Below the pieces are notes generated by a model. It did no database searches, was not told the origin of the DNA, and was given only the letters and a program-made list of their open reading frames with translations. Position numbers and translations under genes: made by a program. Positions 39,230-48,730 of a stretch of DNA of 64,000 nucleotides are shown one piece after another. The DNA is from an uncultured Opitutia bacterium (GTDB taxonomy: Bacteria; Verrucomicrobiota; Verrucomicrobiia; Opitutales; UBA953), in the NCBI GenBank assembly GCA_903855995.1, contig CAIOAN010000008.1, positions 1 to 64,000 on the forward strand, given 5' to 3'. The first letter of the stretch is position 1; each line of letters starts with the position of its first letter.

Positions 39230-40089
39230 GTTTCCCCAAGCAGGCTTGGATCATCACGGCCATCGCGCTGGGGGCTTACTTTATGCTGCGCTCCCTGCCG
39301 GACACCCAGTGCGCGTTTCTTCATGCCGACCATCAACCCGTCGTCGTGGACGGCCTGGAATTCTGTGGTGTCAATGAAGAGGCTAATTTCTATTCTCCGA
39401 AAGAACTCCGGTTCCCGGTGACCCTTAAGATCAAGCGAATCGGCGAAGGTTCGGCTGCGGAACTTCTCTTGATCAAAGAGGAGGGCCTGCCTTTTTATGG
39501 TCATGAAGTCGGGGTGTCGCACACCAAACAAGTGCACCTTCATTTGCTCCAGGCAGGAGGAGAACGCAGGTATGCGCACTTGCACCCCATGCCCAGCGAA
39601 GACGGCACCTGGCATTTTGACTTCCCGGCCCAACTTTACGGCGACACCCCGGTCCGAGCCTATGTCGACTTCGCCGACGCCCGCACGGGAAGAGTCATGC
39701 TCGCCGAGACAATCGTAGAGAATGTTCCTCCGATCCGCCATCCACAGTCCCCCACCTCACCACGGAATCAAATCGTGAGTACGATTGCTAGTTCGACCCG
39801 CGCGGGCACGTCAGCCCAACTGCGCCTCCTGCTCGCTGGCCCTGGGGGAGCTGCCCTGAAATTAAAACCTGTTATGGGTTCGTTGGGGCATGCCGTGATC
39901 TTTTCCACTGAAGCCGGTCGTACCGGGTATGCGCATATGCATCCGACGCTCGAAGGAGGTGAGTATGCGGAAACCCCCACCCTTACTTTCCGACTACGCC
40001 TTCCCCCTGCTGGTCAATATGACCTTTGGCTCCATATTAATGACGGGCAGGAAGAACTCCTGCGGACCACCTTGGTTGTTACGCCGTAG
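39226..40089 (+). CDS. His-rich exported protein, possibly copper-related
   Basis: This 287-residue protein begins with a transmembrane or signal anchor (about 8-22). It then has two beta-sandwich-like halves, each containing a His cluster: VHLHLLQ with YAHLHPM near 107-125, and GHAVIFS with YAHMHPT near 223-245. Each is followed by the F-x-L-P-P-A-G-x-Y-x-L-W pattern of FixH/YtkA-like domains. The family is not one I can name firmly. Translational coupling (4-base overlap) to the SCO-like gene suggests a copper or oxidase-assembly role. Its stop overlaps the convergent epimerase gene by 11 bases. Confidence 0.6.
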   Translation: MSFPKQAWIITAIALGAYFMLRSLPDTQCAFLHADHQPVVVDGLEFCGVNEEANFYSPKELRFPVTLKIKRIGEGSAAELLLIKEEGLPFYGHEVGVSHTKQVHLHLLQAGGERRYAHLHPMPSEDGTWHFDFPAQLYGDTPVRAYVDFADARTGRVMLAETIVENVPPIRHPQSPTSPRNQIVSTIASSTRAGTSAQLRLLLAGPGGAALKLKPVMGSLGHAVIFSTEAGRTGYAHMHPTLEGGEYAETPTLTFRLRLPPAGQYDLWLHINDGQEELLRTTLVVTP

Positions 40090-41005
40090 GGCGTCGATAG
40101 CCTGCGATGGTAGCCGCAAGGCCGCTTGATACGCTAAAATTGGGGACCCATCCCGCTGTCATAAGACGATTGGCTGAGGCGACAGAATGCTTCACGTCGC
40201 CGGCCCTACCTGGAAGAAACTCAAGGGACGAACGAGAATGGGTGAGGCGGATAATCTCTTCGGCGAGGGCCCGGATCGACAAAGATTGGCCGTAGCCGAC
40301 ATTAAAGGTACCGTGCATGTCGGGATGACCGGCTGCATAGATTAGGGCTCCCACGACATCCTTCACGAAGATGAAATCGCGCGTCTGCTCTCCGTCGCCA
40401 TGGATACTAATCGTCTGATGGTTCAGAGCCCGATCAAGGAAAGTGGGGACGGCGGCGGCGTAGGCCGAACGAGGGTCCTGACGCGGGCCGAAGACATTGA
40501 AAAACCTGAGGCTGGCTGTGCTTAGATGCTGGTTGATTCGAAACGATTCCAGCAATTGCTCACCAGCGAGCTTGGTGAAAGCGTAGGGAGATTTCGGCTC
40601 GGGCGTCATCGATTCGAGCTTAGGTACGATCGGGTTATCACCGTAAATAGCAGCCGAAGAAGCCAGGAGAGCACGCTGGGCGCCGGCATGTACGGCTGCT
40701 TCAAGCACCCGACGAGTTCCTTCAATATTCAAACGCGCACACTCGTCGGGCATTTGCACGGATTCCGGGACGGAGATCATCGCCGCCAGGTGAAAGACGT
40801 GCGTCACGCCCTTCATGGCGTCGGCCAAGCAGGTCGCATCAAGAATCGACCCTTCCACAATCCGGCAGTCGAGCCCCTGGAGATTAGCACGGTAACCGCT
40901 CCGGAAATCATCCAGCACCACGACTTCTGCCTTGGTCTGGTAATGTTCGACAATGTGGGAGCCAATGAAGCCGGCTCCGCCCGTTACGAGCACGCGTGGG
41001 GTCAT
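40079..41005 (-). CDS. NAD-dependent sugar-nucleotide epimerase (GalE/WbpP-like)
   Basis: This 308-residue short-chain dehydrogenase-type epimerase has the NAD motif TGGAGFIGSH (about residues 8-17), Ser-Ser-Ala-Ala-Ile-Tyr at the catalytic Ser, YAFTK with the catalytic Tyr and Lys, and RFFNVFGPRQDP. The small-residue pattern is compatible with UDP-GlcNAc/GalNAc 4-epimerases, but specificity is inferred. The start at 41005 forms an ATGA overlap with the NahK-like gene stop; the longer frame to 41020 is less likely. It is the last gene of the amino-sugar run. Confidence 0.85.
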   Translation of the reverse strand: MTPRVLVTGGAGFIGSHIVEHYQTKAEVVVLDDFRSGYRANLQGLDCRIVEGSILDATCLADAMKGVTHVFHLAAMISVPESVQMPDECARLNIEGTRRVLEAAVHAGAQRALLASSAAIYGDNPIVPKLESMTPEPKSPYAFTKLAGEQLLESFRINQHLSTASLRFFNVFGPRQDPRSAYAAAVPTFLDRALNHQTISIHGDGEQTRDFIFVKDVVGALIYAAGHPDMHGTFNVGYGQSLSIRALAEEIIRLTHSRSSLEFLPGRAGDVKHSVASANRLMTAGWVPNFSVSSGLAATIAGYRRPTA

Positions 41006-42111
41006 TGTTGGTCGACGCACTCCTGCATGCGGATCATCTGTTGTTCGATCGAGGCGACCAACTTGAACTGCGTCCGCAAGCGGTCGAGATTGTGGGCGGG
41101 ACGCTTGATCTTAAAATAAACATCGCCTTCCAGCCAATCGGTCAAGAAGCGCAGTCCGATTTCAAATGTGATAAGCTTACCGGCAAAAGGGAGGAGGGAC
41201 TTCTCTCGCTTGGTCAGGAAGCCGCCGGCCGTGCTCAAGTAACCACGGACGAGCGCCTCGAACATCGGGAGCTGCAGGTGGACGCGCGACAGATCCGTCT
41301 CATCTTCTGCCACCGGGGAGGTCGAAGTACGCACAAGGTCTCCGAAATCATACAGAACCGAACCGGGCATGACCGTGTCGAGGTCGATGACGCACAGTCC
41401 TTCCTGCGTTATATTATCGAGCAACACGTTATTGAGCTTCGTGTCATTATGCGTGACGCGTTCCGGCAGTTCACCCGTGCGCAAGGCTTCGGCGACCAGA
41501 GTGACGTCGGCCTGGCGGGCCAAGGCGAAAGATATCTCAGTTTGCACCGACTGGGCCCGACCATGGGCATCCTTCGCCAGCGCCGCGAGAAACCGCGCAA
41601 AGCGACTCGGGGTGTTGTGAAAGTCAGGGATAGTTTCGTGGAGGCGCTCTCCGGGGAGGTCGGCCAGCAGCGATTGGAAAGCCCCAAAAGCTCGCGCAGC
41701 CTGGTAGGCTTGATCGGGTTCACGCACCACATCATGGCCGGTAGCGTTCTCGATGAAGTCGTAGCAGCGCCAGCGATTGCCAGCGGCATCCACGTGCCAA
41801 GACTTCCCCCTTGTGGTCGGGATGAGGCGTAGCGCGCGGCGATGAGCATCCGTCGCACCTGATGCTTCGAGCCGGCGACGAGTATGGGCACAGACTCGCT
41901 CCACGTTCTCCATGAGTTCGTCCGGACGCTTGAAGACGTTGTGGTTAATGCGTTGCAGGACGTAGCGCGTCTGACCCTGGGGAGAATCCATAACGACGGC
42001 ATAAGTGTCGTTAATATGCCCGCTGCCATACGGAGAGGCTGTCAGGAATGAGCCTGTCAGACGGAATTCCCGGGCAATGCCGGCCACGTCATATGAAACA
42101 GGCGTGGTCAT
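41002..42111 (-). CDS. NahK-like N-acetylhexosamine 1-kinase (APH family)
   Basis: This 369-residue aminoglycoside-phosphotransferase-fold kinase resembles bifidobacterial NahK, which makes GlcNAc-1-P and GalNAc-1-P. Matching parts are PYGSGHINDTY (glycine loop, about 28-38), YVLQRINHNVF, THNDTKLNNVLLD with catalytic Asp near residue 222, and VIDLDTVMPGS with the metal Asp. It lies 3 bases after the nucleotidyltransferase and overlaps the epimerase by 4 bases, so sugar-1-phosphate, sugar nucleotide and epimerised sugar nucleotide follow in order. Substrate is inferred from context and similarity. Confidence 0.78.
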   Translation of the reverse strand: MTTPVSYDVAGIAREFRLTGSFLTASPYGSGHINDTYAVVMDSPQGQTRYVLQRINHNVFKRPDELMENVERVCAHTRRRLEASGATDAHRRALRLIPTTRGKSWHVDAAGNRWRCYDFIENATGHDVVREPDQAYQAARAFGAFQSLLADLPGERLHETIPDFHNTPSRFARFLAALAKDAHGRAQSVQTEISFALARQADVTLVAEALRTGELPERVTHNDTKLNNVLLDNITQEGLCVIDLDTVMPGSVLYDFGDLVRTSTSPVAEDETDLSRVHLQLPMFEALVRGYLSTAGGFLTKREKSLLPFAGKLITFEIGLRFLTDWLEGDVYFKIKRPAHNLDRLRTQFKLVASIEQQMIRMQECVDQQ

Positions 42112-42114
42112 TAT

Positions 42115-43020
42115 TCAGGACCAGAGCGAGGGAGGGTAGTTTCCGGAGGCGACCTGCTTTTGGATGCTTTCCTGCACGATCGGCTTATCTTCCCGATAGG
42201 TCACGCCGAACCAGGTGGAGTTAGTACGGAGCACCTGGCACGTGGCGGTGCGGGCCTTGACCAGATTACCGACCGACATCGGAATGTAGGATTCGCTCTT
42301 CATTTCCCGCCCTTGAATAGACAAGAAAGCGCGAAAATCCGCATCTAGCTGGGGGAAGATCGCGGGAGTGAAGCCCCACATGTTCATCGAAACGGGTTCC
42401 TCTCCGGTCAGGGGAGTTACCGGTCCTTCGGTTGGACGATTTTCCGCACCGCTTGGTATGCGGGCAATCTTGGTGAGTTCCTGAATATCGGTAAGCCTCC
42501 CAGATGCGTCCGTCTGGCAAACACCCCGGGCCACCGTGCCATGTTCGGATAAAGTATTCTTTAGTGTAAACCCCACCATGGAGTAGGCCGTGGAGTCATT
42601 GCCAAGCGCCGCGAGATGACGGGCAAGCGAGGCGTAGGAGTCCTGGCCGTAAAAGTCGTCGGCATTAATCACGGCAAAAGGTGCGTTCACGACCTCACGG
42701 GCGCAGAGAATCGCATGGGTCGTCCCCCATGGCTTCTCGCGTCCGGCGGGCACCGAGAAACCCGAAGGAAGCTTATCAATGGTCTGAAATGCGAAGCCGA
42801 CTTCAATACGACCGGAGAATTTGGCGGCGATACGTTCGCGGAAATCTTTCTCGAAGTCAGGACGAATGATAAATACAACCCGATCAAAACCAGCGCGAAT
42901 GGCATCAAAAACCGAGTAGTCCAAGATGGTCTCGCCAGAAGGACCCATGGGGTCAATCTGCTTGAGGCCGCCATAGCGACTGCCCATGCCGGCAGCCAAG
43001 ACGAGAAGGGTAGGTTTCAT
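42115..43020 (-). CDS. Sugar-1-phosphate nucleotidyltransferase-like protein
   Basis: This 301-residue Rossmann-type nucleotidyltransferase opens with LAAGMGSRYGGLKQ (residues 8-21), a variant of the G-x-G-T-R-x-x-P-x-T NTP loop. It continues with an INADDFYG metal motif near 119 and a VSMNMWGF segment near 206. Such proteins couple NTP with a sugar-1-phosphate. In this operon the likely substrate is the product of the NahK-like kinase next door (3-base gap), giving UDP-HexNAc; the nucleotide used cannot be told from sequence. Confidence 0.78.
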   Translation of the reverse strand: MKPTLLVLAAGMGSRYGGLKQIDPMGPSGETILDYSVFDAIRAGFDRVVFIIRPDFEKDFRERIAAKFSGRIEVGFAFQTIDKLPSGFSVPAGREKPWGTTHAILCAREVVNAPFAVINADDFYGQDSYASLARHLAALGNDSTAYSMVGFTLKNTLSEHGTVARGVCQTDASGRLTDIQELTKIARIPSGAENRPTEGPVTPLTGEEPVSMNMWGFTPAIFPQLDADFRAFLSIQGREMKSESYIPMSVGNLVKARTATCQVLRTNSTWFGVTYREDKPIVQESIQKQVASGNYPPSLWS

Positions 43021-43023
43021 GAA

Positions 43024-43872
43024 TCAAAGAGATTTGCGCAGTCGGGCGGCGACGTCGAGTTTGAGACGATCGATGAATCCCAGCGTATATTCAGTGGGAT
43101 CAAGAGTGTCATCGCGGATAAGGGGGGTGAGATCCATGGCCCACTGTATCGAAGTCTCCCGGTCGGTCTGATGGGGATTGCCGAAGGTCGCATTTGCCGC
43201 CCGGCGTCCGAGTACGGCGAGGTCATAGCGCTTACCTCCGGCGATCTGGGTGGCAAAGACGGCGTTGATCTTCTGGGCTAATTCAGGATGCCCCGACACG
43301 GGCATGGGGGTCTTCTCGTCGTCGACGAGCCAATCTAAATCGCGCCAGACCTCACAGCCGTAGACTTGTATCGGGCGCTCAGCCATAGGCATGAGCCGAA
43401 TTGCTTCGATCGCGCGAAGAGCGCAACCGACATGGGTGTCATGCTTATCCGCGAGATTGTGGAGGTAGACGACCTGCGGACGGGTGGCATCGAGAATCCG
43501 GTGCAGTTCGGTGCGTACCGCGATCTGTTGAGAGTCGCGGACGGCAGCGCTCGGATACCCCAGCTGAGCGACAAAGGAATACTCTCCGAGGACCGCGGCG
43601 GCTTCCTGTTCCCTGACACGTTCAGCGGCGATTTGATCGTCTGTCCATTCTTTGAATTGTCCGGCCCGGGAGCTTCCGCGGCCATCGGTGATGGTGACGC
43701 CTCCGAACCAGAGGTCGGAGCGGTCGTAACAGGCCAGGATGCCGTGAAAAGCCATGAACTCTAAATCATCCTGGTGGGCACCGATACCGAGATGGGTCGT
43801 GCGGGCCAGCGCCTGGGAGCCAGCCACGGCATCCGGAATCATGAGCTTCGCAAGAGGATTGAGGGACATCAT
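43024..43872 (-). CDS. PIG-L/LmbE-family N-acetylglucosamine deacetylase-like protein
   Basis: This 282-residue zinc deacetylase has the family motif A-H-Q-D-D-L-E (about residues 33-39, zinc His and Asp) and a distal KHDTHVG with the third zinc His near 150. PIG-L enzymes remove N-acetyl groups from GlcNAc-containing substrates. It overlaps the ROK-like kinase by 4 bases and lies in a run with nagB while no nagA gene is present, so it may deacetylate GlcNAc or GlcNAc-6-P (inference). There is no signal peptide, consistent with a cytoplasmic small-molecule substrate. Confidence 0.82.
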   Translation of the reverse strand: MMSLNPLAKLMIPDAVAGSQALARTTHLGIGAHQDDLEFMAFHGILACYDRSDLWFGGVTITDGRGSSRAGQFKEWTDDQIAAERVREQEAAAVLGEYSFVAQLGYPSAAVRDSQQIAVRTELHRILDATRPQVVYLHNLADKHDTHVGCALRAIEAIRLMPMAERPIQVYGCEVWRDLDWLVDDEKTPMPVSGHPELAQKINAVFATQIAGGKRYDLAVLGRRAANATFGNPHQTDRETSIQWAMDLTPLIRDDTLDPTEYTLGFIDRLKLDVAARLRKSL

Positions 43873-45254
43873 GGGCGCAGAGGGGGCAGGGAGGCGGCCG
43901 CAATGGCCTGACCATGGCGTTTATCTTTCTCAGGCGGGGCCATGAGGTCGATGCGAAGTTCCGGAAACTCATCGCGAAGCACTGCCTGGGCTCGTTCGAT
44001 GATAACCGCGCCGCCCGGACCGGAAGTCACTCGCCCCATGATGAGCAAGCTGCTCATTTCGTAAAAATTGGCAAAATGCGCAATGGCGTAGCCGAACGCG
44101 ATGCCGATGGCGTCATAGACCTGCATGGCACGTTCATCGCCGGCAAGCATGAGACGCTGGAGCTCTTCAAGTTGCTCGGGAAGCCTCAACGCGGGGGGTA
44201 GCGTGATCCCGGCCAATGGCATGAGGCGACCCACGCCTTGTTGGCTGAAATATTGTACGGCACACCCAGCATCGCCGGACCATTCATCGACCGGGCCGGC
44301 CTCACGATAATCCACTGGCACGAAGGCCAGTTCGCTGAGCCAGTTGGTGAGGTTGCCACCATTGTCGACATAGCCTGCTGCCACGCTGGTGCCCATGGCG
44401 ACCCCAAGGACCGCGTTACGCCCCAAAGACATCGAAGCGGCCAGGGCGGTGACATCCCCGTCATTGAGGACCTCGAAGGGCACCTGATACTCGGCGGCGA
44501 GATCAACGAAGAGATTGCGCACCTTGGTTTCAAAAACCGCCGGATCCGTGATACCCCTGAAGAGAGAGCCAACGCATACCTTATTGTTAATGTAGACGCC
44601 GGCCGATGAGCCGCCAACTGCATCTACCCGGGGGAGATGTCTCGCCGCCAGTGCGAGTGAATCGCGGATGCCATCAAGATGGTATTGCGGATTGGCCTGG
44701 AAGTAGGGATCCCATTTCACTTCTTCGGAGTAAACCACTTTGCCGTCGATCAGGGCAGCGCATTTGCGATCGGACCCTCCCAGGTCAAAGCCGATGCGAC
44801 ACCCATCAAGATGGCGCCCAAGGGGGAGGTGGGCGGCGGAAGGAGCCGGGAGGGCGGATGGCTCGACGGCACGGAAGCGAAGGGGTTTTTGAAAAATACG
44901 GAAAAAGAAGTCCGCATCAAAAGCTCTGGAGCCGGCAGGTGAATAAGCTACCTGTAAACTTTCGGCGAGGCTGGTCGCCAACGGGCCACACATGAGTACC
45001 TCGGGTGCGCCGCGCGACCAAAGAAGAAATTTAACCGTCCGTTCAGCATGCAGATAATTGGCCGCGTCATCCGTTCCCGCCGGCAGCAGCTTGGTCCGGA
45101 AAAGGGAAGCGGTACCGTCATCTCGCTTGAGGGCAATGGTCAGCGCCGTCGATCCGGCTAGCGCATCACAACGTCGTAGGTGGTCCCGAGTCCATAAGGA
45201 GGCCGGCACCAGGTGCGGATCAATCTTTGAAAGATAGCGGGGGAGGGCGGCCAT
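43869..45254 (-). CDS. ROK/hexokinase-like sugar kinase with N-terminal extension
   Basis: This protein of about 461 residues ends in an ASKHA kinase domain (about 155-455). It has the phosphate loop IGFDLGGSDRKCAALI, a catalytic-base candidate in VLNDGDVTALA, and GVAMGTSVAAGY. The usual ROK zinc motif (C-x-C-G-x-x-G-C) is absent, so it is a divergent member. About 150 residues precede the domain and look alpha/beta but are unrecognised. The start is placed at 45254, 8 bases after nagB; the longer frame to 45338 would overlap nagB by 76 bases. A GlcNAc or glucosamine kinase role is inferred from context. Confidence 0.72.
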   Translation of the reverse strand: MAALPRYLSKIDPHLVPASLWTRDHLRRCDALAGSTALTIALKRDDGTASLFRTKLLPAGTDDAANYLHAERTVKFLLWSRGAPEVLMCGPLATSLAESLQVAYSPAGSRAFDADFFFRIFQKPLRFRAVEPSALPAPSAAHLPLGRHLDGCRIGFDLGGSDRKCAALIDGKVVYSEEVKWDPYFQANPQYHLDGIRDSLALAARHLPRVDAVGGSSAGVYINNKVCVGSLFRGITDPAVFETKVRNLFVDLAAEYQVPFEVLNDGDVTALAASMSLGRNAVLGVAMGTSVAAGYVDNGGNLTNWLSELAFVPVDYREAGPVDEWSGDAGCAVQYFSQQGVGRLMPLAGITLPPALRLPEQLEELQRLMLAGDERAMQVYDAIGIAFGYAIAHFANFYEMSSLLIMGRVTSGPGGAVIIERAQAVLRDEFPELRIDLMAPPEKDKRHGQAIAAASLPPLRP

Positions 45255-45262
45255 CGGGGGGC

Positions 45263-46003
45263 TTAGAGTTGCATGGCCGAGCTGTAATCTAGATGAAAGG
45301 TGCAGCGTGGATGATGCTGAAGCCAGGTCGCCGGACATGCTGCCGACGGCGTCTCCTGCATGGCGCGGCGAACGATGGCTGATTTTCCTTCGCCGAAAGC
45401 GAGCAACTCCACTCGGCGCGCCTCCATGATGGTCGCAACCCCCATGGTCAGGGCGGCGTGAGGCACCAGGGCAAGGTCACCAAAGAAGGTCGAATTATCC
45501 TGGCGGGTCATCTCATCCAGATGCACCCAGCGGGTGCGCGTGTTGTCCGCGGACGGCGGTTCGTTGAAGCCAATGTGTCCCGTACGACCGAGGCCGAGTA
45601 TCTGAAGATCAATCCCGCCTGCCTGGTGAATGGCCTCTTCGTAGGCGACACAATGCCGCGCGGGCTCCCGGCTCAACCCGTCGGGAATATGAATATGGGA
45701 GGCAGGTACGTCCACATGTCGGAACAAGTGCTCCTCCATGAAGTGCCGGTAGGACTGCGGGTGGGTCGGCCCCAGACCGGCGTATTCATCGAGATTGAAG
45801 GTGATCACTGAACGGAAGCTCAGGCCTTCGTCGCGGTGCAGACGAATCAGCTCGGCATAAAGCGGCAGAGGGGTGGAACCCGTGGCCAGACCAAGCACAG
45901 TCGACTTGCCCGATTTCGAGCGTATCTGAATCAGGTCGGCTATCTCCCGGGCAACCGCTTGAGCGGCGATGTGTTTATCGGGGTGCAGCCGGGTGGCGAT
46001 CAT
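45263..46003 (-). CDS. nagB: Glucosamine-6-phosphate deaminase
   Basis: This 246-residue enzyme converts glucosamine-6-phosphate to fructose-6-phosphate and ammonia. It has GLATGSTPLPLY at the phosphate site, FNLDEYAGL with the catalytic Asp near residue 72, and LGLGRTGHIGFNEP with the catalytic His near 138. It starts 3 bases after the valS stop, so expression is probably coupled to valS. It opens the amino-sugar genes that follow, feeding their product into glycolysis. Confidence 0.93.
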   Translation of the reverse strand: MIATRLHPDKHIAAQAVAREIADLIQIRSKSGKSTVLGLATGSTPLPLYAELIRLHRDEGLSFRSVITFNLDEYAGLGPTHPQSYRHFMEEHLFRHVDVPASHIHIPDGLSREPARHCVAYEEAIHQAGGIDLQILGLGRTGHIGFNEPPSADNTRTRWVHLDEMTRQDNSTFFGDLALVPHAALTMGVATIMEARRVELLAFGEGKSAIVRRAMQETPSAACPATWLQHHPRCTFHLDYSSAMQL

Positions 46004-46006
46004 AGG

Positions 46007-48730
46007 TCAGCCCAGGGAGGCAATCATGCGTGCAATCTCATCACGCTTGGCTTTGACTTCTTCGAGTTGTTTACGGGCGCCTTCCAGAATGTTTGGCGGA
46101 GCCTTGGAGACAAACGCCTCATTGGTGAGTTTAGCTTCACCAGCCGAAACACCCTTCTCCAATTTTTCGAGTTCCTTCGTGAGCCGCATTTTTTCGGCGG
46201 CTACGTCGATGTTGCCGGAAAGCTCGAGCATCACTGTTCCCATCGGAGTCACGGCTCCGGTGCGACCTCCGGCGTCGGCAGCAAAGTTGATCTCGGCCAA
46301 GCCAGCCATGCGGGTTAATTTGTCGCGGTTGTTTTCCACCAGTAACTTGGCGGCGGCATCTTTGACGACGATGGTCACCACAGAATCCCGGCGGGTTGCC
46401 TGGTTGGCCTGAGACTTAAGACCGCGGATCGAAGCCACCAGTTCACGAAGCAAGGCCACATCGGCTACCTTAGCTGCGCTGAGTTTCACGCCGTTCTCGC
46501 GGAGAACGCGTAAGAGATCTCCGCCGGATCCGGTATGATGGTTCTGAATGAAATCATTTTCATTACCATAGCCCAGCAGGTGCCAGAGTTCCTCTGAGAT
46601 GAACGGGGCAACAGGGTGGAGCAGCAGGAGAAACTGGCGGAGGACCAGGTCCTGCACGGCCAGGCAGGTGTCGCGCAGAGCCGGATCGGCCAGGCGCGCC
46701 TTGGACGCTTCGACATACCAATCACAGAAATCGCCCCAGAAGAAGGCGTAGAGTCCCTGGGCGTAGGCAGTGAACTCATGGTCATCCAAGTTCTTGGTGG
46801 TGCTGTCGGTCAGTTCAGCGAGGCCCTGCAGAATGGCGAAGTCATCATCATCCAGCAAAGACGCCTGGATCCGGGAGGCGACGGCGACCAGTGAAGAGTT
46901 ATCAGACATCGGGCCGGACATCTGGCGGAAGCGCGCCGCATTCCAGAGCTTATTGCAGAAATTACGGCCCTGAGAAACCCGATCCTCATCAAAGAGAATA
47001 TCCTGCCCCTTCGGAGCGATTGAGAGCAGACCGAAACGCAGGCCGTCGGCGCCGAACTTGGCGATCAGATCGAGAGGTTCAGGCGAGTTGCCCAGCGACT
47101 TGGACATTTTCCGCCCCAGCTTATCGCGAATAATACCATTGAAATAGACACGCTTGAATGGAACACGTTGCCGAATCTCGTCATCCGTCAAAGTCTTCTT
47201 CTCCGGGCCATAGAGTTCAAGGCCGGCGATGATCATACGGGCAACCCAGAGGAAGATAATATCTGGTCCGGTGGCGAGGGCACCCGTCGGATACCAGTGC
47301 TTGAGCTCCTCGGTGGTTTCTCCGGGCTTACGCCAACCCAGCGTAGCCAAGCACCATAGCCAGGAAGAAGCCCAAGTGTCGAGGACATCGGGGTCTTGTT
47401 CCCAATTCTGGGGATCAGCGGGAGGATTTAAAGACACGTGGCAATGAGCGGGATCATTACGATCGGCTCCCTTGCGGTACCAGACGGGGATACGATGCCC
47501 CCACCAAAGTTGGCGGCTCACGCACCAGTCCTGGATGTTCTCCAGCCAGTGAAGGTAGGTCTTCGTCCATCGTTCCGGGTGAAACTTGATGATACCCGAG
47601 GTGACGGCACGTTTGGCTTCCTCGATCTTGGGATAACGGATGAACCACTGTTCGCTAAGACGAGGCTCGATCGGCACATCAGCGCGCTCGGAATACCCGA
47701 CGGTGTTTTCGTAAGGCTCGGTTTTCACCAGCGCACCGAGTTCCTCGAGAAGCTTTTCGGCGGCGGTCCGTGCCTTAAAACGCTCCATACCAGCCAAGGG
47801 GCCGGCGTCGGCGTTCATCGTGCCATCGGGATTCATCACATCGATGACCGGCAGCTTGTGACGCTTGCCGATATCGAAGTCCGTACGATCGTGGGCCGGG
47901 GTGACCTTCAGTACACCCGTGCCGAAAGCTCGTTCGACGGCCTCATCGCCGACGATCGGAATTTGGGCGCGTGGGAAGGGGCGCCAGACATGCTTGCCGA
48001 TGAGATGCCTGTAACGCTCATCCTCAGGATGGACGGCGACGGCGGCGTCACCGGGGATCGTCTCCGGTCGGGTGGTAGAAATCTCCAGGAACGTCCCGGG
48101 CAATTCCGCGACTTCGTAGCGCATCCGATACAGCGAGCCCTTAGAAGGCTTCATGATCACCTCTTCATCGGAGAGACCTGTCTGGGAAACCGGACACCAA
48201 TTCACCATCCGTTTTCCGCGATAGACATAGCCACGCTCATAGAGCGTGACGAAAGTCTGCAGGACCGCCTGCGAGTAGCCCGCATCGAGCGTATGCACCG
48301 TGCGATCCCAGTCGCAGGAAGCGCCCAGTTTGCGGAGCTGGCCGAGGATGATGCCGCCGTGCTTGTCGCGCCACTCGCTGGCGGTTTCGATGAATTTCTC
48401 CCGCCCCAGGTCATGGCGGGTTTTTCCCTGCTTCTGGCGAAGTTCTTTTTCAACGCGCGATTGGGTGGCGATGCCGGCGTGATCGGTGCCAGGCAGCCAG
48501 AGTGCGGACTTACCTTCTTGGCGGGCCCGGCGCACCATGATATCCTGCAACGTGTTATTCAGCAGGTGGCCCATGTGGAGAACACCCGTTACATTGGGCG
48601 GCGGAATCATCACCGCAAAGGATTCGCGGCTATGGTCTACCTTGCCCTTGAAGCATCCGGCGGCGACCCATCGGTCGTACCACTGCTGTTCGACCCCTTG
48701 AGGTTCATAAGATTTAGGTATTTCAGCCAT
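46007..48730 (-). CDS. valS: Valyl-tRNA synthetase
   Basis: This 907-residue class I synthetase charges tRNA-Val. It has the HIGH-type motif HMGH near residue 52, an editing domain with TTRPETIPGDAAV near 222, KMSKSLGNSPEP near 539 and the C-terminal coiled-coil arm (LTKELEKLEKGV region). Length and architecture are normal. It is the first gene of a tight minus-strand run continuing directly into nagB. The SRP RNA gene lies divergently just upstream. Confidence 0.97.
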   Translation of the reverse strand: MAEIPKSYEPQGVEQQWYDRWVAAGCFKGKVDHSRESFAVMIPPPNVTGVLHMGHLLNNTLQDIMVRRARQEGKSALWLPGTDHAGIATQSRVEKELRQKQGKTRHDLGREKFIETASEWRDKHGGIILGQLRKLGASCDWDRTVHTLDAGYSQAVLQTFVTLYERGYVYRGKRMVNWCPVSQTGLSDEEVIMKPSKGSLYRMRYEVAELPGTFLEISTTRPETIPGDAAVAVHPEDERYRHLIGKHVWRPFPRAQIPIVGDEAVERAFGTGVLKVTPAHDRTDFDIGKRHKLPVIDVMNPDGTMNADAGPLAGMERFKARTAAEKLLEELGALVKTEPYENTVGYSERADVPIEPRLSEQWFIRYPKIEEAKRAVTSGIIKFHPERWTKTYLHWLENIQDWCVSRQLWWGHRIPVWYRKGADRNDPAHCHVSLNPPADPQNWEQDPDVLDTWASSWLWCLATLGWRKPGETTEELKHWYPTGALATGPDIIFLWVARMIIAGLELYGPEKKTLTDDEIRQRVPFKRVYFNGIIRDKLGRKMSKSLGNSPEPLDLIAKFGADGLRFGLLSIAPKGQDILFDEDRVSQGRNFCNKLWNAARFRQMSGPMSDNSSLVAVASRIQASLLDDDDFAILQGLAELTDSTTKNLDDHEFTAYAQGLYAFFWGDFCDWYVEASKARLADPALRDTCLAVQDLVLRQFLLLLHPVAPFISEELWHLLGYGNENDFIQNHHTGSGGDLLRVLRENGVKLSAAKVADVALLRELVASIRGLKSQANQATRRDSVVTIVVKDAAAKLLVENNRDKLTRMAGLAEINFAADAGGRTGAVTPMGTVMLELSGNIDVAAEKMRLTKELEKLEKGVSAGEAKLTNEAFVSKAPPNILEGARKQLEEVKAKRDEIARMIASLG

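Follow-up and report, generated by a model that had tools for sequence, protein, structure and literature searches.

A conserved amino-sugar operon of an Opitutales bacterium with a PIG-L/LmbE protein as candidate substitute for NagA

The window, a stretch of 64,000 nucleotides from contig CAIOAN010000008.1 of an uncultured Opitutia bacterium (assembly GCA_903855995.1), carries on its minus strand a run of genes encoding the deaminase NagB, a ROK-fold sugar kinase and a PIG-L/LmbE protein, continued by a nucleotidyltransferase, a NahK-type kinase and an epimerase. The run proves to be a genuine amino-sugar operon that is conserved widely, and gene context, together with sequence motifs and structure models, makes it rather probable that its PIG-L protein takes over the deacetylation of NagA, acting on N-acetylglucosamine-6-phosphate (GlcNAc-6-P) or on N-acetylglucosamine (GlcNAc). 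In the proposed route the ROK-fold kinase and the PIG-L deacetylase would jointly convert GlcNAc to glucosamine-6-phosphate (GlcN-6-P), with PIG-L performing the deacetylation done elsewhere by NagA; NagB would then deaminate GlcN-6-P to fructose-6-phosphate, and the three downstream enzymes would lead GlcNAc or N-acetylgalactosamine (GalNAc) into uridine diphosphate (UDP) sugars. Observed directly were the genes present and their order, the motifs of the active sites, the predicted folds and the alternation of PIG-L and NagA beside one kinase family; we infer all enzyme activities and the substrate.

We regard the operon as a variant form of GlcNAc catabolism and not as a system of a new kind. 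With the canonical NagA-NagB pathway, of the Escherichia coli and Bacillus subtilis type, it shares a NagB, a sugar kinase and the predicted conversion of GlcNAc to fructose-6-phosphate; in 11 of 99 related loci NagA even stands in the same slot after the ROK gene. It differs in that the run holds an unrelated PIG-L/LmbE protein instead of the amidohydrolase NagA, and in that the NagA homologue found elsewhere in the window's genome scores below the cut-off set by NCBI. An earlier note on this DNA had suggested that PIG-L replaces NagA. The chemistry is likely, given the alternation of PIG-L and NagA beside the ROK gene, the existence of NagB-PIG-L fusions, the rarity of above-cut-off NagA in genomes where PIG-L neighbours ROK and the HxDD + H motif, but the genome does encode a NagA homologue, and the idea of a replacement fits the gene family better than the window genome itself.

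GlcNAc use is commonly predicted from nagA, as in a study in which nagB served as the signature and nagA was then called (PMC5583593). If PIG-L does replace NagA, amino-sugar use could be overlooked in members of the phylum, Verrucomicrobiota, a set of unassigned PIG-L genes would gain a function, and NagA would have undergone repeated non-orthologous replacement beside one conserved kinase. No paper on PIG-L replacing NagA was among the matches listed from the open-access literature in PubMed Central (PMC).

PIG-L, NagB and the ROK-fold protein

The PIG-L protein (282 amino acids, 43024 to 43872, minus strand) matches PF02585 with 49 bits against a gathering score of 28.2. Across 56 sequences seven of its residues never vary, namely H33-Q34-D35-D36, D142, H144 and H147; the HQDD metal and general-base motif, residues 33-36, is encoded at 43765 to 43776, and the DKHDTH stretch, residues 142-147, with H147 as the presumed third metal ligand, at 43432 to 43449. 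The 110 residues between D36 and H147 fit the HXDD + H motif of the PIG-L/LmbE superfamily, for which a review gives HXD1D2 + H with 97-148 residues between ligands 2 and 3 (PMC4101496); according to the same source, the LmbE-like enzymes identified by its date act on substrates containing N-acetylglucosamine. The structure model (predicted local distance difference test score, pLDDT, 95.1) has the Rossmann-like fold of LmbE proteins, and the protein is probably an N-deacetylase. Its fold is close to those of BshB (2ixd, Z 24.2, root-mean-square deviation 2.2 over 204 residues) and MshB (1q74, Z 18.4), with which it shares the metal motif. Those enzymes serve thiol biosynthesis, however, and identity with BshB was rejected, the window protein reaching 25.1 bits (BshB1) and 22.9 bits (BshB2) against cut-offs of 182.5 and 195.25. 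Archaeal diacetylchitobiose deacetylases share the LmbE fold too (Z up to 21.7, 8bgn), but the Thermococcus/Pyrococcus enzyme (TkDAC) is only about 16% identical to the window PIG-L and acts on GlcNAc2, and its gene context presumably differs otherwise from that of the window operon. We know of no LmbE enzyme with GlcNAc-6-P as its kind of substrate. Enzymes of the TkDAC type are described as deacetylating GlcNAc units in chitin breakdown (PMC4101496). Another PIG-L gene of the window's genome (contig C13, locus L006:7709-12640) lies about 3 kb from an open reading frame (ORF) of 312 amino acids that resembles the NagB fold by eye; this ORF had no Pfam match and no solved relative at 0.1.

NagB (246 amino acids, 45263 to 46003, minus strand; PF01182, 6.5e-24) scores 248.2 bits against the glucosamine-6-phosphate deaminase model TIGR00502, above the cut-off of 236.9, and its nearest solved structure is 2bkv (E 1.4e-53). 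Its best model is PRK02122/NF002557, which describes a NagB-PIG-L fusion: the match of 304.2 bits lies below the 384-bit cut-off and covers the NagB part of the model only, so that the window protein, having no PIG-L half, is not itself such a fusion. The catalytic Asp, His, Glu and Lys positions, whose names and numbering are our assumption, are all kept. Among 39 ROK-linked NagB proteins, Asp, His and Lys are each present in all 39 and Glu in 32, with Asp replacing Glu in the other seven. The position of Arg172 (E. coli numbering), which we take to be the phosphate-binding Arg of E. coli NagB, holds Thr in the window protein and Arg in 15 of the 39. Its loss was considered as a hint of an unphosphorylated substrate and dropped; the position varies widely and the weight of the Thr is therefore doubtful. 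Within the phylum, the NagB of Akkermansia muciniphila was measured as a GlcN-6-P deaminase (PMC5902328). A third NagB-fold gene of the window's genome (C7:305768) was rejected as a deaminase, its Glu position aligning to Trp, and looks like a 6-phosphogluconolactonase.

The ROK-fold protein (43869 to 45254, minus strand) matches PF00480 with 28.8 bits, weak but above the gathering cut-off of 22.9, and a sequence search of solved structures found nothing at E 0.1. The structure model (pLDDT 93.7) matches a glucokinase (2qm1, Z 25.8) and a GlcNAc kinase (7p9l, Z 25.6) over residues 153-464. All of 42 sequences share the DLGG stretch (D160, L161, G162) and N267-D268 without change; we take these to be the positions expected for phosphate binding and catalysis. 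At its N terminus the model (43872 to 45263) is extended by about 150 residues. Alignments with the listed ROK kinases start only at residue 150-155, whereas those with three eukaryotic hexokinases, at Z about 17.5, take in almost the entire chain (12-464 or 13-464).

PIG-L and NagA in the slot after the ROK gene

The neighbours of the ROK gene were surveyed in 145 genomes of the phylum, with ROK matches taken at 1e-20. A ROK homologue occurs in 97 of them, and NagA in 100 at 1e-10 and in 68 above its curated cut-off; these genome counts are complete, and the individual NagA matches are those listed. From 101 ROK matches, 99 further loci were fetched, leaving out a fragment of 122 residues (G058:C14:15751) and the window's own gene. 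Neighbours were labelled from ORFs read from the first start codon and from profiles built here, so that genes may be missed and contig ends cut some loci. PIG-L lies near ROK on the same strand in 28 of the 99 loci, directly after it in 25, one gene away in two and as a remnant in one; the others hold NagA (11), NagB without a deacetylase (16), or only a nucleotidyltransferase or NahK (13). Three alternatives occur in the slot after ROK: the window type of PIG-L, a second PIG-L subfamily, whose profile is 14% identical to that of the first, and NagA, with gaps of -11 to 75 nt in its 11 loci.

With the window genome counted and the remnant excluded, NagA above the cut-off was found in three of the 28 genomes whose ROK gene has PIG-L nearby, as against 56 of the 69 others (p 1e-10). 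Counting the remnant as a neighbour gives 3/29 against 56/68 (Fisher p 2e-11), Fisher's test ignoring kinship. At 1e-10 NagA was found in 14/29 genomes with a PIG-L neighbour and 64/68 without, the remnant genome, G075, counting as a neighbour through its remnant only. This remnant of the window-type PIG-L, of about 58 residues, follows the second ROK gene of G075 (L085:5207-5386), and that genome has no NagA match at 1e-10. In half of the 28 genomes, all with ROK beside a full-length PIG-L gene, there is no NagA at 1e-10, and at E 0.1 they give either short partial matches not exceeding 25.3 bits or nothing at all; for these, the congener G102 and 13 others, the absence of nagA stands. The matches to NagA-like genes at G037:C9:93339, G043:C3:108087 and G049:C40:115819, in three genomes of one genus, each contain one internal TGA, either from decay or from a match running past the gene.

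A second set, the best 80 of 592 loci fetched by PIG-L similarity, comes mostly from metagenome-assembled genomes of Opitutae and other Verrucomicrobia; it is not independent of the first, at least one genome being shared (G012 and the genome of L178 both show NagA at C22:9083-10009, and contig C44 of the former is as long as the contig of L178, at 142,833). Both the congener G102 and 12 of these 80 loci repeat the complete order nagB-ROK-PIG-L-nucleotidyltransferase-NahK-epimerase, and the run is therefore no chance arrangement. PIG-L is directly followed by NagB in 29 of the 80. In the 39 genomes behind 39 of these loci, NagA was found above the cut-off in two and at 1e-10 in 20; Opitutae bacterium BS10 (locus L150, genome G153) is among those that gave nothing at 1e-10.

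NagB-PIG-L fusions form a further link between the two proteins. In nine loci of the same order a long NagB ORF, of 635-753 amino acids, lies upstream of ROK, and all nine, when tested, were PRK02122 fusions (825 to 903 bits, PF01182 + PF02585). This family is also the one that the window NagB resembles most, but in the window and in G102 the NagB part stands alone and PIG-L is a separate gene. A profile of the window-type PIG-L found no match among the fused halves, which look, by sequence, like another subfamily. One reading is that the two PIG-L proteins overlapped in function and that the fused domain then decayed and was lost, a direction that we infer. The fusions with Glu for the first metal His are L049, L050, L053, L061, L063, L065 and L105, and the PIG-L half of these seven is probably inactive; L055 and L064 retain the histidine.

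Evidence against the proposed replacement and rival explanations

The earlier note had found no nagA in the run and read the route as NagA-less. The local part holds, with none in the ORFs read in and around the run; the 64 kb were not scanned separately, but the sole clear match in the genome lies outside the window. The genome-wide part does not: a search with TIGR00221 gave one clear match at C8:434706-435683, with 195.8 bits against the NCBI cut-off of 225.65, beside a second nagB-like gene. The claim that the genome has no nagA was rejected for the window organism, which should not be treated as NagA-less. In the congener G102 (same genus, 99% complete, 8 contigs), which carries the whole operon, NagA gave no match at 1e-10, and at E 0.1 there were two partial ones, scoring 17.1 and 14.8 bits; its NagB-like gene of the second type has no NagA-like neighbour, and of its two PIG-L genes one lies within the operon. 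A cell-wall role forced by a missing glmS was rejected, glmS being present in both genomes. The second amino-sugar pair of the window genome (C8:434646-436619, L005:6647-8620) consists of NagA-like and NagB-like genes of a distinct type (THLGN; GIGENSHLAFNDPP), and a NagB-like gene with GIGEN(G/S)H(L/I)AFNDPP stands beside such a NagA-like gene in 8 of 21 loci inspected, this one included.

Several further observations weigh, with this NagA homologue about 390 kb from the operon, against PIG-L as a substitute for NagA. The LmbE fold alone is no proof of a deacetylase, since GalB, a hydratase, matches it too (Z 22.8), and the first metal His of the PIG-L half has given way to Glu in 7/9 fusions, so that not every PIG-L linked to NagB is an enzyme. 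None of the neighbours sought was found in 31 of the 99 ROK loci. Eleven of the 28 PIG-L genomes have, at 1e-10, a NagA-like protein of the type below the cut-off, which may work as NagA; three more (G114, G120 and G132) combine a PIG-L neighbour with NagA above the cut-off, and NagA above it is likewise missing from 12 of the 68 genomes in which ROK has no PIG-L nearby. Flavobacterium johnsoniae, too, is described as having a predicted NagA together with four nagB-like genes (PMC5127042). Moreover, the contrast between PIG-L and NagA rests on few lineages: a quickly built ROK tree shows 13 changes in PIG-L adjacency and seven in NagA above the cut-off, and well-supported branches yield seven independent pairs. 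NagA differs in two to three of these, almost always in the direction expected; this is too few for significance in such a phylogeny-corrected test (sign test, median p 0.5). On this tree the row nearest the window genus, G086, has a ROK gene without the neighbours sought and a NagA of 226 bits, just above the cut-off.

Given these points, it could be that the distant NagA-like/NagB-like pair is the organism's GlcNAc route and that PIG-L serves another N-acetylated sugar or a biosynthetic intermediate. The NagA-like gene adjoins a nagB-like gene and carries the HxEGP, GHT and THLGN stretches, and it may work as NagA despite its score, because all ten solved relatives listed for it are NagA (best 3egj, E 2.1e-37). 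This explanation is nevertheless unlikely: the same ROK kinase is accompanied by PIG-L in some loci and by NagA in others, and G102 retains the operon although a search of it with the NagA-like protein was empty even at E 10, in a search that held no known positive. An alternative role for PIG-L lies in the genes directly downstream of it, for NahK, a nucleotidyltransferase and an epimerase, which would suit an enzyme acting on GlcNAc-1-phosphate, which NahK forms, or on a nucleotide sugar, in a unit for salvage or remodelling of UDP-amino sugars rather than for catabolism. The loci in which ROK has only a nucleotidyltransferase or NahK beside it are consistent with such a unit, yet it is very improbable in view of the NagB that so often directly follows PIG-L and of the fusions of the two. 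It is also improbable that the ROK-fold protein acts as a sugar-sensing regulator or is a pseudo-kinase, which would leave the route unclosed within the operon: its Pfam score is weak, a ROK repressor (5f7r, Z 25.4) is among its closest folds and the zinc-binding Cys/His motif typical of ROK proteins was not seen by eye in the translation, but against this stand the invariant DLGG and N267-D268.

If PIG-L does take over the deacetylation, the order of the two steps has to be considered. An order in which the kinase forms GlcNAc-6-P and PIG-L then acts on it is tentatively favoured, because those relatives in which NagA occupies this slot would be expected to depend on GlcNAc-6-P. The reverse, with PIG-L acting on GlcNAc and the kinase on glucosamine, is nearly as likely, if doubtful in itself, and resembles the archaeal chitin route. 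More broadly, it is conceivable, though not to be relied upon, that in Verrucomicrobiota and neighbouring groups the ROK-fold family works with interchangeable deacetylases (two PIG-L types, a fused third or NagA), that in the PIG-L lineages an LmbE protein hydrolyses GlcNAc-6-P itself and that NagA can consequently be dispensed with in entire families.

Layout of the operon and its remaining genes

The window genome comprises 2.66 Mb in 13 contigs and is 97.36% complete. Read along the minus strand, valS is followed by nagB, ROK, PIG-L, nucleotidyltransferase, NahK and epimerase, and as far as NahK neighbouring genes are spaced by -4 to 8 nt; the start of the epimerase is unsure. The earlier note had placed nagB, ROK and PIG-L next to each other with overlaps. 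The three genes lie where it had put them and ROK and PIG-L do overlap, by 4 nt, but the overlap of nagB with ROK is only apparent. The ORF listed for ROK spans 43869-45338; homology to its relatives begins mostly at codon 24-39 of this ORF, and the two relatives in which it begins earlier, G102 and G086, are listed with an in-frame stop inside. Homology and spacing favour the ATG at 45254, 8 nt past the nagB stop, which is therefore the likely start. The run is also longer than the three genes to which it had been confined, continuing to the nucleotidyltransferase, NahK and epimerase and having valS upstream. The valS gene (46007 to 48730, minus strand) ends 3 nt before nagB and stands in the same order in the congener locus L043; it is probably co-transcribed with the run, outside the pathway.

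Downstream, 3 nt after PIG-L, the nucleotidyltransferase (42115 to 43020, minus strand; PF00483, 30 bits) is likely a sugar-1-phosphate uridylyltransferase: its best solved match is 3pnn (E 1.3e-100), named 'conserved domain protein', and uridine triphosphate (UTP)-glucose-1-phosphate uridylyltransferases follow at E 3.8e-6 and weaker. The NahK-type N-acetylhexosamine 1-kinase (41002 to 42111, minus strand; PF01636) resembles solved NahK 4wh1 over nearly its full length (E 5.2e-95, residues 9-360 of 369). The last gene (40079 to 41020, minus strand; PF01370, 4.9e-56) encodes a GalE-like sugar epimerase dependent on nicotinamide adenine dinucleotide (NAD), whose best solved match is 6dnt; WbgU, WbpP and UDP-glucose 4-epimerases were also matched. 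NahK, a sugar nucleotidyltransferase and an epimerase occur together in the lacto-N-biose/galacto-N-biose pathway of Bifidobacterium as well, but the window run has no phosphorylase among its named genes and is joined to NagB, ROK and PIG-L. That pathway presumably uses GalT, in place of which the window run has the PF00483 transferase.

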